A stretch of 33,482 nt of DNA from a virus. A program made the position numbers and the translations under genes. Position 1 is the first letter of the stretch; every line of letters starts with the position of its first letter. Below the pieces are notes generated by a model. It saw only the letters and a list, made by a program, of their open reading frames with translations. It was not told the DNA's origin and did not search any database. Positions 2,403 to 33,482 of this stretch are shown here, piece by piece. The stretch is taken from IMG/VR virus record IMGVR_UViG_3300013102_000053, positions 1-33,482 of that record. One strand, given 5' to 3'.

Positions 2403-3152
2403 TCAGCTCCGTGCGATCAGCGAGACGGCCGGGAAGCCGCCGAAAGGCAGCGGGTTGCCTTCGCCAAACCGCGGGATGCAACCCTTGCCCAGCGTAGCGT
2501 CGCATTCGTCCAGTTCTGGGTTGTCGGTGACTACGCCGTCCTTGGTCACGTACGGCCCGGTGTAGCCGCAGCTCGGCCCACGGTAACCACCGGTGAGGCA
2601 CCAGTGACACAGCGTCGTGGCCTGCCGGCCAATGGACTCATTGCCGACGTCGCCCGGGCTGGCTAGCTCCCAACTGACGTTTTCCCCGTCCTCGTTCGTC
2701 TTCTGGTCGATGTACCAGACCTCGATCGTCTCTTGGGTTGGGTCTGCCGTTGGATTGCCGGCCGGGAAGTTCGCCGCATCGAGGTAGCTGCCGAGCGTGT
2801 GCCGCATCGTCAGTTTGAACTCGAGCAGATCCTCGAACGCGAGGCACAGCGCTGTGATCCGCCCATTGACGTTGCCCACCGATAAAGTTGGCCGCACGGC
2901 AGTGCCGTCGCCGTTCGCCTCGATGCCGTCGATCTGCATCGGCCAGGCGCCGTACTCGTTCCCCTGCCAGTAGATAGCCTTCGCGGGCAACTGATCAGCA
3001 TTGGCGCCAGCGGCGATCAGCTCGGCCGCGGTGTACGGGATTGAATGCCCGTGAAAGCGCAAAACATCAGCACCATAGTCCGTACCGTCCAATTCAAAGA
3101 GCAGCACTTCGCTGCCAGGCTCAAGCACCTGGATATCACTGATCAGCGGCAT
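2403..3152 (-). CDS. Lambda gpL-like minor tail tip protein
   Basis: 249 residues. The N-terminus (SDIQVLEPGSEVLLFELDG) and the cysteine-rich C-terminal quarter (LCHWCLTGGYRG...C, then two more Cys near the end) match lambda gpL. In lambda the C-terminal cysteines hold an iron-sulfur cluster, and the tail tip forms from J, I, L and K. At least four of the cysteines here are placed to bind such a cluster. It lies between the M- and K-like genes in canonical order. Confidence 0.9.
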   Translation of the reverse strand: MPLISDIQVLEPGSEVLLFELDGTDYGADVLRFHGHSIPYTAAELIAAGANADQLPAKAIYWQGNEYGAWPMQIDGIEANGDGTAVRPTLSVGNVNGRITALCLAFEDLLEFKLTMRHTLGSYLDAANFPAGNPTADPTQETIEVWYIDQKTNEDGENVSWELASPGDVGNESIGRQATTLCHWCLTGGYRGPSCGYTGPYVTKDGVVTDNPELDECDATLGKGCIPRFGEGNPLPFGGFPAVSLIARS

Positions 3153-3161
3153 GATTGCCCC

Positions 3162-3500
3162 TTATGGAAGAAAGGATTGGGTAAAGGTGGTGGTCAGGGT
3201 GTACCAGCCAGCGCCTTTCGGCGTGATCGACGGCGCAGTACCGCGATAGAAGGAAAGCTCCCCCAGCGGCGGCGTCCAGAAAAACGACTTGTGCCCCGCG
3301 TGACGATCAAGAAACGCCTTGATGTCCAGCGCGACAGCCTCCCGAACGACAAACGTCAGCGGCCAGGAGTCGACTCGATTATTCGGGCCATCCCCCACCA
3401 CCTGTTCGTATCCATTGCCGAATTTGGATGATCGATTGCGGTATTCCGGCGTGCTGGTGGACTCGATCATCGGGCACCAGTCAAACGTTTCAACGGCCAT
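3162..3500 (-). CDS. Lambda gpM-like minor tail protein
   Basis: 112 residues from ATG 3500, overlapping the tape measure stop by 11 bases. The pattern NRSSKFGNGYEQVVGDGPNN, the WPLTF strand and the FFWTPPLGE motif are typical of the lambda gpM family that joins the tail tube to the tip. Position between tape measure and L-like gene agrees. Confidence 0.9.
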   Translation of the reverse strand: MAVETFDWCPMIESTSTPEYRNRSSKFGNGYEQVVGDGPNNRVDSWPLTFVVREAVALDIKAFLDRHAGHKSFFWTPPLGELSFYRGTAPSITPKGAGWYTLTTTFTQSFLP

Positions 3501-22403: not shown

Positions 22404-23120
22404 ATGGAACTCAAAGACAGATTGAAACAAGCACGAAAAGGCGCTGGGCTCACCCAGGTTGAACTTGCTGATCGCGCAGGCATAAAACAGGCGTCCATCT
22501 CGGAGATAGAGCGAGGGCTTACTCGCACCTCTGGACACCTGATTAGGCTGGCTCAGATATGCGGCGTAGACCCCGTGTGGCTTTCAGAAGGGACTGGTTC
22601 GCCGGAAGGCAATCAGCGCCCTTCTACAGTCGAATCAAACGCCGTGTTAATCGGGTCTTTCGACGTATGGGACGATGAGACCCCGCTGGATGATGACGAG
22701 GTCTATGTGCCGTTTCTCAAGGAAGTCGAGTTGTCAGCAGGTGCTGGAATTACGGCAGTTCACGAATCGCCAAGGCAGAAGCTTCGGTTCGGGAAAATGA
22801 CTCTACGCCGCCAGGGTGTACAGCCATCTGAGGCCGTTTGCGTTACGGTTTCTGGTAACAGCATGGAACCCGTGCTTCCTGATGGAAGCACCGTCGGCGT
22901 GGATCGAGGTACTACCACCATCACAGACGGCAAGATGTATGCCCTGGATCACGGCGGCCAGCTCCGCGTGAAGACTCTGTATCGATTGCCTGGCGGCGGT
23001 ATCCGGATGCGAAGCTTCAACCGCGACGAACACCCAGACGAAGAGTACACACCGCAAGATATGCTCGAGAAGGAAATCGCTGTTCTCGGCCGGGTGTTCT
23101 GGTCTTCCGCCCTCTGGTAA
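22404..23120 (+). CDS. CI-type repressor (XRE HTH + S24 autoprotease)
   Basis: 238 residues from ATG 22404. N-terminal XRE HTH (LKQARKGAGLTQVELADRAG, then SISEIERGLTR). C-terminal LexA-type peptidase with the Ala-Gly cleavage region ELSAGAG (residues 109-115), Ser153 in SGNSMEP and Lys190 in LRVKTL. It maintains lysogeny and should self-cleave upon RecA activation, so the prophage is likely DNA-damage inducible. An in-frame extension upstream crosses the operators and is rejected. Flanked by operator pairs on both sides. Confidence 0.94.
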   Translation: MELKDRLKQARKGAGLTQVELADRAGIKQASISEIERGLTRTSGHLIRLAQICGVDPVWLSEGTGSPEGNQRPSTVESNAVLIGSFDVWDDETPLDDDEVYVPFLKEVELSAGAGITAVHESPRQKLRFGKMTLRRQGVQPSEAVCVTVSGNSMEPVLPDGSTVGVDRGTTTITDGKMYALDHGGQLRVKTLYRLPGGGIRMRSFNRDEHPDEEYTPQDMLEKEIAVLGRVFWSSALW

Positions 23121-23393: not shown

Positions 23394-23492
23394 GCCCGTA
23401 CCGCGCCAGCAGCGCCGAAGGGACACGGAAAGTTTCACTGATGCGCCTGGTTGGCCGGGCGCATTGGGAAATCAACCGAGAGGCACACCAGC

Positions 23493-23798
23493 ATGGAATC
23501 AATCATCAAGAGCGGCACATGGATCGGCCATCTCGGCCGTGGGCTTGCTCGCAGAGAACTTCAGTTTTTGCTTTTAGTTGCCCAGGGCCTCACAGCCAAA
23601 CAGATCGCCCGCTCCCACGACGTTGAGCCCGGGACGGTCGCTAAGCGGATCTCCAACGCCATGTTCAAGCTGGGCGTTCATCGCCAGTCGGCGGCGGTAG
23701 CCGAGGCCATGCGGCGAGAAATCATCGTAGGACAGGCAGACGGTCCGAATCCTCAAGGTCCAGTTGGGGAATCGAACGATGGTGTTTTTATCGCTTAA
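23493..23798 (+). CDS. LuxR-type HTH regulator
   Basis: 101 residues from ATG 23493 (MESIIKSGTWIG), preceded by GAGAGG. The core LARRELQFLLLVAQGLTAKQIARSHDVEPGTVAKRISNAMFKLGVHRQSAAVAEA is a complete GerE/LuxR-type HTH (about residues 16-72) with no sensor domain. A solitary HTH of this type in the early operon probably regulates phage or host genes. The start is favoured by its leader, which resembles that of the next gene. Confidence 0.87.
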   Translation: MESIIKSGTWIGHLGRGLARRELQFLLLVAQGLTAKQIARSHDVEPGTVAKRISNAMFKLGVHRQSAAVAEAMRREIIVGQADGPNPQGPVGESNDGVFIA

Positions 23799-23866
23799 AC
23801 GAAGGGAAGACTTCACTGGCTGGCCTTGGCGACAGGGCCAGACGGGAAATCAACCGGAGGAACAGC

Positions 23867-24064
23867 ATGACCACGATCATCAAGGACACCTTCACCAGCG
23901 GTGCACAGGTGAGCATGGAAATGGATAAGGACGAAGGCGAGCTGTTCGTCTTTCATTGCCCAGCCGGCCAAGGCTGCAAGGTCAGCAAATGGCCTCTGGA
24001 CAGCTACCACATGCCGATCGCAATGGCGCATTACACAGAGTGCTGCGCGGCTGAGACTGCTTGA
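23867..24064 (+). CDS. Small hypothetical protein
   Basis: 65 residues from ATG 23867 with GGAGG six bases upstream. Beta-rich, with several cysteines (HCPAGQGCKVS and ECCAAE). Not recognised. The leader TTCACTGGC...GGGAAATCAACCGGAGGAACAGC parallels the one before the LuxR-type gene, which supports the call. Confidence 0.7.
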   Translation: MTTIIKDTFTSGAQVSMEMDKDEGELFVFHCPAGQGCKVSKWPLDSYHMPIAMAHYTECCAAETA

Positions 24065-24097
24065 AAAACCAGCGCCACGACAGCCTGTCGTTAACTG

Positions 24098-24302
24098 CCC
24101 GATCCTCTCTATGAGAGCGCATCGGGGTGTGATTGGAGCGTGCCCAAGTGGGCTGCAGCGCTAGGATCGCAAAGACCCGTGAATCTCCTGAGCCGGTATG
24201 AGCAAGACGGCCAACACTAGAAACGCGGCGGGAACCAAGCAGGGGTGGCGCCCTGGTGTTCCGATCACACCCCGATGCGGACGCCAACCCAGCAGACGCT
24301 GG
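24098..24302 (+). ncRNA. Strongly structured leader region, candidate regulatory RNA
   Basis: CGCATCGGGGTGTGAT (24118-24133) pairs perfectly over 16 bp with 24264-24279. Inside lie hairpins AGCG/CGCT plus GCCC/GGGC (24137-24162) and CAGGG/CCCTG (24240-24255). A competing hairpin GCCCGAT/ATCGGGG with inner CTCTC-TAT-GAGAG (24097-24127) uses the same bases as the 5' arm. A further hairpin CCAGC-AGAC-GCTGG follows (24289-24302). Two exclusive folds suggest an attenuator or switch. No RNA family was recognised and no gene of substance covers it. Confidence 0.45.
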
Positions 24303-24328
24303 ACACCTGCACTCAACCGGAGATCCAC

Positions 24329-24472
24329 ATGCTCCTGATCATCCTGATCGGCGCAGCGCTTGCGCATGTGCGGCCAGAACCGCCCTGCTCTATCGCCCTG
24401 CCAACCGATCCGCAACGTGCACACCGTGAGCGATGGCGATGTACCGCCGGGGTCGTCGCGTTCTGGCGCTGA
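24329..24472 (+). CDS. 47-residue peptide with hydrophobic N-terminus
   Basis: Starts MLLIILIGAALAHVRP; GGAG lies six bases before the ATG and the leader CAACCGGAG matches that of the preceding genes. Residues 2-12 are hydrophobic, followed by a Pro/Arg-rich part with two cysteines and a TCGA-type C-terminus rich in W and R. It could be a short membrane peptide. It is followed by a terminator. Supported by position and ribosome binding site only. Confidence 0.5.
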   Translation: MLLIILIGAALAHVRPEPPCSIALPTDPQRAHRERWRCTAGVVAFWR

Positions 24473-24523
24473 ACGATCCCGCCAAAAACTTCGCCACCCG
24501 AGATCACTGCATCTGAGAAACAC

Positions 24524-24553
24524 AAAAGGCCCTCCCGTCCAGTTGGGCCTTTT
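24524..24553 (+). terminator. Terminator after the 47-residue peptide gene
   Basis: AAAAGGCCC and GGGCCTTTT form a 9-bp stem with a 12-nt loop; the T-run on the 3' arm gives plus-strand termination, and the A-run gives it on the other strand too. Early transcription must pass it, hinting at antitermination in this operon. Confidence 0.75.
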
Positions 24554-24562
24554 CTTCGCCTC

Positions 24563-24636
24563 GCGTTTATCCGTCAGCACTCCCCCTGCGCCCAACGGCA
24601 ACCCGCAGGCGGCCCCGAGTGCTGACGAATAAACGC
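24563..24636 (+). repeat. Long inverted repeat in the leader of the 94-residue gene
   Basis: The 20-nt arms 24563-24582 and 24617-24636 (GCGTTTAT... and ...ATAAACGC) match with a single mismatch. The 34-nt interior carries a further CCTGCG/CGCAGG pair. It lies 24 bases before the next start codon. Either a strong RNA hairpin or a protein-binding inverted repeat. Confidence 0.65.
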
Positions 24637-24660
24637 AATACCACCACCGAGGGATCAGCA

Positions 24661-33425: not shown

Positions 33426-33482
33426 TGGTAGGCGCGATTGGACTCGAACCAACGACCCCCACCATGTCAAGGTGGTGCTCTA
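33426..33482 (-). tRNA. tRNA-Val(GAC), 3' 57 nt (5' end outside window)
   Basis: On the minus strand the 3' end reads ...CGCGCCTACCA, with T-arm GTTGG-TTCGAGT-CCAAT and anticodon arm CCACC-TTGACAT-GGTGG, anticodon GAC. The CCA is encoded. Prophage integration near tRNA 3' ends is common, and int lies just beside it, so this is the likely attachment gene. The intact 3' part means the phage end restores the tRNA. Confidence 0.92.

Follow-up and report, generated by a model that had tools for sequence, protein, structure and literature searches.

The DNA analysed here (the window) was a viral stretch of 33,482 nucleotides (IMG/VR record IMGVR_UViG_3300013102_000053), in which a CI-like repressor gene (ending at position 23120), a small sigma-factor-like HTH gene, a DNA methyltransferase gene and an integrase gene were found on the same strand as the RNA element described below, and the replication-initiation gene on the opposite strand, in a lambda-type map arrangement. 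A 65-aa gene assigned to phrog_27409 (23867-24064, + strand) ended directly before the element, which spanned about 240 nt and was located about 1 kb past the repressor gene. This position, downstream of the CI-like repressor and on the strand of the integrase and the early genes, agreed with the early-operon location proposed in the initial annotation. The further statement that some 600 bases here contain no sizeable gene held for positions 24065-24660, with the exception of a 47-codon small ORF after the element (24329-24472, + strand), for which a similar start was found in one relative (L055). The CI repressor gene was upstream of the element and on its strand in 59 of 59 loci of relatives, and the annotated phages PseuP_224, Aurca01 and MD8 bore the element at the same place in the operon.

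Other features were observed in the window. A terminator-like hairpin (AAAAGGCCC..GGGCCTTTT) at 24524-24556, also present in some relatives, preceded another long inverted repeat (GCGTTTATCCGTCAGCACTC/GAGTGCTGACGAATAAACGC, 24563-24582/24617-24636); hairpin and repeat occurred with changes in L172 and L175 and together probably constitute a further conserved RNA element in this operon. A small hairpin with the shared string ATCAACCGGAGG, or close forms of it, preceded several early genes (23440-23510, 23810-23870 and 24280-24331), as if these intergenic cassettes shared one ribosome-binding unit. Finally, a partial tRNA adjoining the integrase gene at the end of the window (33429-33482) is probably the attachment site.

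The perfect 16-bp long-range stem noted initially was borne out: positions 24118-24133 (CGCATCGGGGTGTGAT) paired with 24264-24279 (ATCACACCCCGATGCG) on the + strand, and these arms were the sole perfect inverted repeat of at least 16 bp with a spacer of up to 250 nt in the whole 33 kb, none of 60 simulated windows of matched dinucleotide make-up containing a perfect inverted repeat of that length. The folding energy of the 261-nt stretch bearing the element was -104 kcal/mol on the + strand (z -2.70, with 1 of 200 shuffles equally good), and on the minus strand the z-score against shuffles was only -0.93. The left arm could also pair with the sequence preceding it, as had been proposed, because CCCGAT (24098-24103) and ATCGGG (24121-24126) formed a local hairpin of -15.5 kcal/mol around CTCTC-TAT-GAGAG. 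The two folds had been described as mutually exclusive, which was only partly right: both exist, but when the local hairpin was forced the inner part of the long stem was retained (-73.7 versus -85.3 kcal/mol, a penalty of about 12 kcal/mol), so that competition was limited to the outer 9 bp or so of the long stem.

Comparison with relatives divided the element into the following parts, all given on the + strand. The 5' part (24065-24097) started directly past the upstream stop codon, as it did in relatives, and consisted of AACCAGCGCCACG, the hairpin hp0 (CGACA-GCC-TGTCG, 24078-24090), for which compensated forms were found in relatives (CGACAGCCTGTCG versus CGTCAGCCTGACG), and GTTAACTGC. The upstream competitor strand x (CCCGAT, 24098-24103) came next, and then the hairpin hp1 (CTCTC-TAT-GAGAG, 24105-24117), which was kept in relatives with other stems (CCTGGT/ACCAGG, CCTGC/GCAGG and CCTGGC/GCCAGG). 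The outer 8 nt of the left arm (24118-24133), CGCATCGG, include x' (ATCGGG, 24121-24126), which can pair either with x or with the right arm (24264-24279), whose strand x'' is CCGATGCG (24272-24279). The RNA enclosed by the two arms, hereafter the cargo, was in the window a member of a family of about 130 nt named W (24134-24263), with a hairpin GCCC-AAGT-GGGC near its 5' end and AGGGG..CCCT near its 3' end, as delineated by alignments A1 and A2, model R1 and pair counts. The 3' part (24280-24310) comprised GACG, the hairpin hp2 (CCAGC-AGAC-GCTGG, 24289-24302) and ACACCTGC; in relatives the sequence of hp2 varied while the hairpin was retained, followed by CCTGCA. Judged from these comparisons, the constant frame is made up of hp0, x (CCCGAT), hp1, x' (GCATCGG), x'' (CCGATGC) and hp2, with a slot for an inner stem and a cargo.

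The 16-nt arm was found in at least 120 viral contigs, counts from these scans being lower bounds, with its complement usually about 65-190 nt away; 51 stretches of a species-genome set, mostly of Pseudomonas, contained the right arm. Three more viral scans were carried out with the upstream motif as query and the arm either free or barred from its common form. In total 234 elements were detected, of which three (L285, L325 and L385) were judged to be chance matches and removed, leaving about 231 distinct elements of Pseudomonas phages. Among the 234, each of stem pairs 10-18 used all four Watson-Crick types and was Watson-Crick in 88-98%, and pairs 1-8 were near invariant, with changes tolerated at pairs 1 and 6. 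The high pairing is partly inherent in the detector, but the variety of pair types is not, nor is the set chosen by the 5' motif alone, in which the long stem was present in 107 of 133 elements, compared with 0 of 133 after shuffling. CCCGA preceded the arm in 103 of these 107 stem-bearing elements and ATCGG was present in 103, neither having been required, and the order x-x'-x'', as in the window, was likewise found in 103. The ATCGG of x' occurred in 225 of the 234 elements, from unrelated phages, and in L426 all three partners had changed together (CCCAAT, ATTGG and CCAAT). At pair 9, 72 of 234 elements had A opposite C; a fully matched stem is therefore not required. A constant outer and a variable inner stem would be the pattern expected if the outer strand must match partners both upstream and downstream and the inner strand only one, and the constancy of the outer pairs would be explained as well by the binding of a protein to the outer stem. 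The covariation that the initial annotation had called for was found among relatives in both arms, and in the interior as well; no reading frame was conserved through the element, to judge from cargo family lengths of 156, 157 and 162 nt. One frame type alone was present in about 9% of the sampled Pseudomonas species genomes (26 of 298).

Clustering of the enclosed RNAs gave about 74 cargo sequence families of about 12-190 nt. One identical pair of flanks (25 nt on the left and 30 nt on the right) enclosed 13 different cargo families, which indicated that cargos had been exchanged like cassettes; 14 flank pairs had more than one cargo family, and 32 cargo families occurred with more than one stem sequence. 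The inner stem and the cargo RNA pass between phages as one unit. Tandem elements were seen in phage Aurca01 (L173, 6000-6600), their stems differing (CGCATCGGTCTGCAATCT versus TGCATCGGAATGTCGGCG) and another AATGCGCAGGCTGATGCGC unit lying in between. By single-sequence fold energy the cargos did not stand out from random phage segments (mean z -0.28 versus -0.25), so that not every cargo is proven to be structured, and covariation within families was used instead. Among the 24 families with at least three sequences most alifold z-scores were negative, and double-changed pairs over these families numbered about 52, compared with about 16 in column shuffles, an excess of about threefold. It is by alignment, and not by fold energy alone, that the cargo families are judged to be structured.

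The W family was aligned from 13 Pseudomonas-phage copies together with those of Citrobacter phage phiNP, E. coli strain F5 and a phage-plasmid-like replicon of strain ET210 (about 130 nt, about 60 positions invariant), and the alignment was extended with copies from an N15-like Salmonella linear plasmid, a Klebsiella michiganensis plasmid and a Leclercia plasmid. The extended alignment had 13 double-changed pairs, compared with 6 after shuffling. Of all cells, 95% were paired versus 87% in shuffles and 30-55% when the structure was slid, and 47 cells were double-changed versus 12 in shuffles, none of 500 shuffles being as good. Those G-U pairs that were kept throughout fitted the + strand only. 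Copies of W were present in phages of Citrobacter, Klebsiella and E. coli, in N15-like linear plasmids and in phage-plasmids. In the replicons of ET210 and Leclercia W followed tRNA-Arg and tRNA-Ile genes, and W was found outside the Pseudomonas frame as well. Because of this cross-genus alignment and its covariation, W is considered an RNA family in its own right. A search of 369 gammaproteobacterial genomes with model R1, under strict filters and with just 9 candidates scored per genome, gave no match, an outcome that carries no weight. On an N15-like plasmid (L487, 3960-4070), another stem (ACAACAGCAAAGAGCAC/GTGCTCTTTTCGTTGT) with its own insert was seen beyond the W RNA.

Many other cargos shared a recurring scaffold that starts with GCGC-AGGCTGAT-GCGC, ends with CCGG-AGATCAGC-CCGG and has a hypervariable middle, of which there were 31 families. 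The two loops were complementary over at least 5 nt in 38 of 43 cases, compared with 3.9 when loops were shuffled, and compensated variants were found (GTCGA/TCGAC, ACTGA/TCAGT and GCCGA/TCGGC). This two-hairpin, kissing-loop scaffold may resemble the D-loop/T-loop elbow of tRNA with the remainder made variable. A canonical T-arm was present in 5 of 77 Pseudomonas cargo families, compared with 0.06 by shuffling, a sixth family (L138) had a T-arm in the other orientation, one cargo (L122) matched the tRNA model RF00005, and remains of T-arms and D-arms were found in several cargos. Despite these T-arms, ARAGORN detected no tRNA in the slot of the Pseudomonas cargos, and the window element gave no match to the Rfam tRNA model, no cloverleaf with an anticodon arm being found in it. 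Most cargos, W included, are not tRNAs.

A counterpart of the frame was found in phages of E. coli, Citrobacter, Klebsiella and Salmonella, as an untranslated leader of the form ACAACG..(slot 1)..CGTTGTGG..(slot 2)..CCACAAC, which has the same x-x'-x'' order as the Pseudomonas frame in unrelated sequence. In e14/YfdP-type phages it sits right behind the repressor gene, and parts of it were present in 1036 of 5426 E. coli genomes. Slot 2 contained 42 families in 97 distinct sequences, among them W (phiNP and F5), tRNA-Arg(TCT), tRNA-like RNAs with an enlarged anticodon region and the scaffold common to the Pseudomonas cargos. An intact tRNA-Arg(TCT), with anticodon UCU, was detected by ARAGORN in slot 2 of 10 loci and is annotated as such in Salmonella phage SPC32H; x' and this tRNA overlapped by about one base, so both helices can coexist there. 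A conserved leader start (GGCATATGGCACATGTGCCGCAGCGG ... GCCGGAATGTGCAAG), which had no Rfam match, was observed in L479-L485 (about 2900-3440), and in L484 (3345-3445) the next E. coli leader stem (ACAAAACAGAGAA/TTCTCTGTTTTGT) enclosed GACGGGCTCATAACCC, similar to the anticodon arm of initiator tRNA.

The window element gave no match to Rfam 15, C4 antisense RNA (RF01695) included, at the gathering threshold or at E up to 10, and neither did the slot RNAs examined in the E. coli, Citrobacter and phage-plasmid loci match any Rfam 15 family. These results, together with the covariation in arms and interior, upheld the description of the element as a structured RNA of the early operon that belongs to no recognised family. 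A full-text search confined to the open-access literature returned no description of it, and judged on that literature the element appears undescribed. Among the mEp immI phages, one matches the enterobacterial leader by sequence; the passages on these phages in PMC11893012 give them an N-like protein and nut sites and do not mention the element RNA. The put RNAs of HK022, of about 70 nt and with two stem-loops, putL lying just downstream of PL (PMC9378689), are, like the element, structured RNAs of a lambdoid pL operon that act as RNA; the element differs from them in its length of about 240 nt, its 16-bp long-range stem, its place about 1 kb past the repressor gene and its hypervariable core. 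By definition put RNAs also bind RNA polymerase and thereby suppress termination. Phage tRNA genes and tRNA-like RNAs share T-arms and D-arms with some cargos, and some enterobacterial slots contain a tRNA-Arg that is intact, but the Pseudomonas slot fuses the acceptor end to a helix of 16-20 bp, and neither the cargo of the window nor the majority of the others are tRNAs. Integron attC cassettes have folded inverted arms and exchangeable content; unlike them, the element keeps a constant operon location and covaries at the RNA level, and no integron integrase was seen. Hotspots of protein-coding anti-defence and accessory genes also combine constant flanks with exchangeable content, which in the element is instead structured RNA of about 10-190 nt inside a dedicated RNA frame.

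The element of the window is almost certainly an allele of a modular RNA locus that lambdoid Pseudomonas phages carry in their early operon of the pL type. The architecture, a frame with exchangeable cargos, is strongly supported, and the RNA folds, their covariation, the exchange, the fixed orientation, the enterobacterial counterpart and the tRNA-like cargos, tRNA-Arg among them, were all demonstrated at the level of sequence; the account of processing and function that follows is what we infer. The frame would be transcribed together with the early genes, with x and x' pairing first and x being displaced once x'' emerges, closing the long stem. The resulting helix of 16-20 bp may lead to the cargo being cut out, in an RNase III type of processing as in rRNA precursors, or may keep it folded, and the released cargo would act in trans as an accessory RNA. 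As the best overall explanation we therefore favour an accessory-RNA slot in the pL operon with trans-acting cargos, to which we give about an even chance, and the claim that the cargos are trans-acting accessory RNAs may equally well prove right or wrong. The diversity of cargos in a constant frame and the occurrence of W both inside and outside it argue for accessory products rather than spacers. Mimicry or decoying of tRNA-recognising factors, tRNA-targeting phage defences included, would be the likeliest action, because many cargos have a tRNA-like elbow and a hypervariable distal domain; against this, only a minority of the Pseudomonas cargo families have a tRNA T-arm. That the cargos are decoys against host defence in particular is rather unlikely.

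The fixed intergenic position and the x-x'-x'' arrangement also fit a role in cis, in which the frame would be an antiterminator or attenuator switch, the change of x' between x and x'' altering termination or RNase access, and the cargo would be a spacer or sensor. This is possible though not probable. No part of the element is more constant than the strands x, x' and x'', L426 changed all three together, the enterobacterial leader repeats their order with unrelated sequence (ACAACG, CGTTGTGG and CCACAAC), and the terminator-like hairpin lies downstream in the window and in some relatives; but of 140 loci only 51 had a canonical terminator in the 700 nt that follow, the exchange of unrelated cargos, many of whose families have covariation of their own, is unexpected for a spacer, and W is also present outside the frame. 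The initial suggestion of an attenuator or riboswitch-like element has so far gained no support: an intrinsic terminator followed in only those 51 of 140 loci, and swapping of the interior between unrelated RNAs would be unexpected of an aptamer or attenuator core; with a terminator in a minority of loci and no conserved core, a riboswitch or attenuator is disfavoured as the sole reading.

It is improbable that the slot originated as a phage gene supplying a tRNA and that most cargos are decayed or diverging tRNAs. The intact tRNA-Arg(TCT) of the enterobacterial slot, the T-arm and D-arm remains and the position of W beside tRNA-Arg and tRNA-Ile genes in phage-plasmids would be accounted for, but most families keep a paired structure of their own that is not tRNA-like, W is conserved across genera without a recognisable anticodon arm, and covariation would not survive decay. 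Still less probable is an RNA immunity of the P4 type, with an antisense x' pairing with flanking x and x'' to stop the early transcription of superinfecting phages. In P4, one sequence is flanked by two complements, in the order seqA-CI-seqC (PMC4825925), and the element resembles this P4 leader and IsrK of Gifsy-1 in being an untranslated early leader whose central sequence pairs up- or downstream. Unlike in P4, x' is invariant across unrelated phages, which would leave no specificity, and encloses exchangeable cargos; these phages have a CI protein repressor; and the P4 leader lacked the motifs of the element and gave only weak, scattered blastn matches to its loci, with no homology. A DNA-level site, with the arms as recombination ends of a mobile element that has no RNA role, can hardly be right: the inverted-repeat form of the arms and the exchange of interiors within identical flanks would suit it, but the inner arms differ among elements and yet match each other, the orientation in the operon is fixed, the cargos show RNA-type covariation with G-U pairs workable on the + strand only, and the flanking hairpins hp0, hp1 and hp2 belong to the conserved frame.

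The exchangeable accessory content of phages is known as protein genes, and in the locus described here a conserved phage frame has structured RNA as its exchangeable content. Taking the accessory-RNA slot further, we tentatively suggest, as an idea that is possible but still doubtful, that temperate phages of the Gammaproteobacteria maintain a slot dedicated to interchangeable effector RNAs, in which a tRNA-like or kissing-loop elbow presents a swapped hypervariable domain; these RNAs would be the first to be expressed, from the early operon, and would target host factors acting on tRNA or translation. If so, this effector-RNA slot would be the RNA counterpart of accessory anti-defence genes. 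The locus yields dozens of new RNA families at once, among them W, whose conservation extends from phages of Pseudomonas to plasmids of enterobacteria, and with it the role of phage non-coding RNAs in early infection becomes directly testable.
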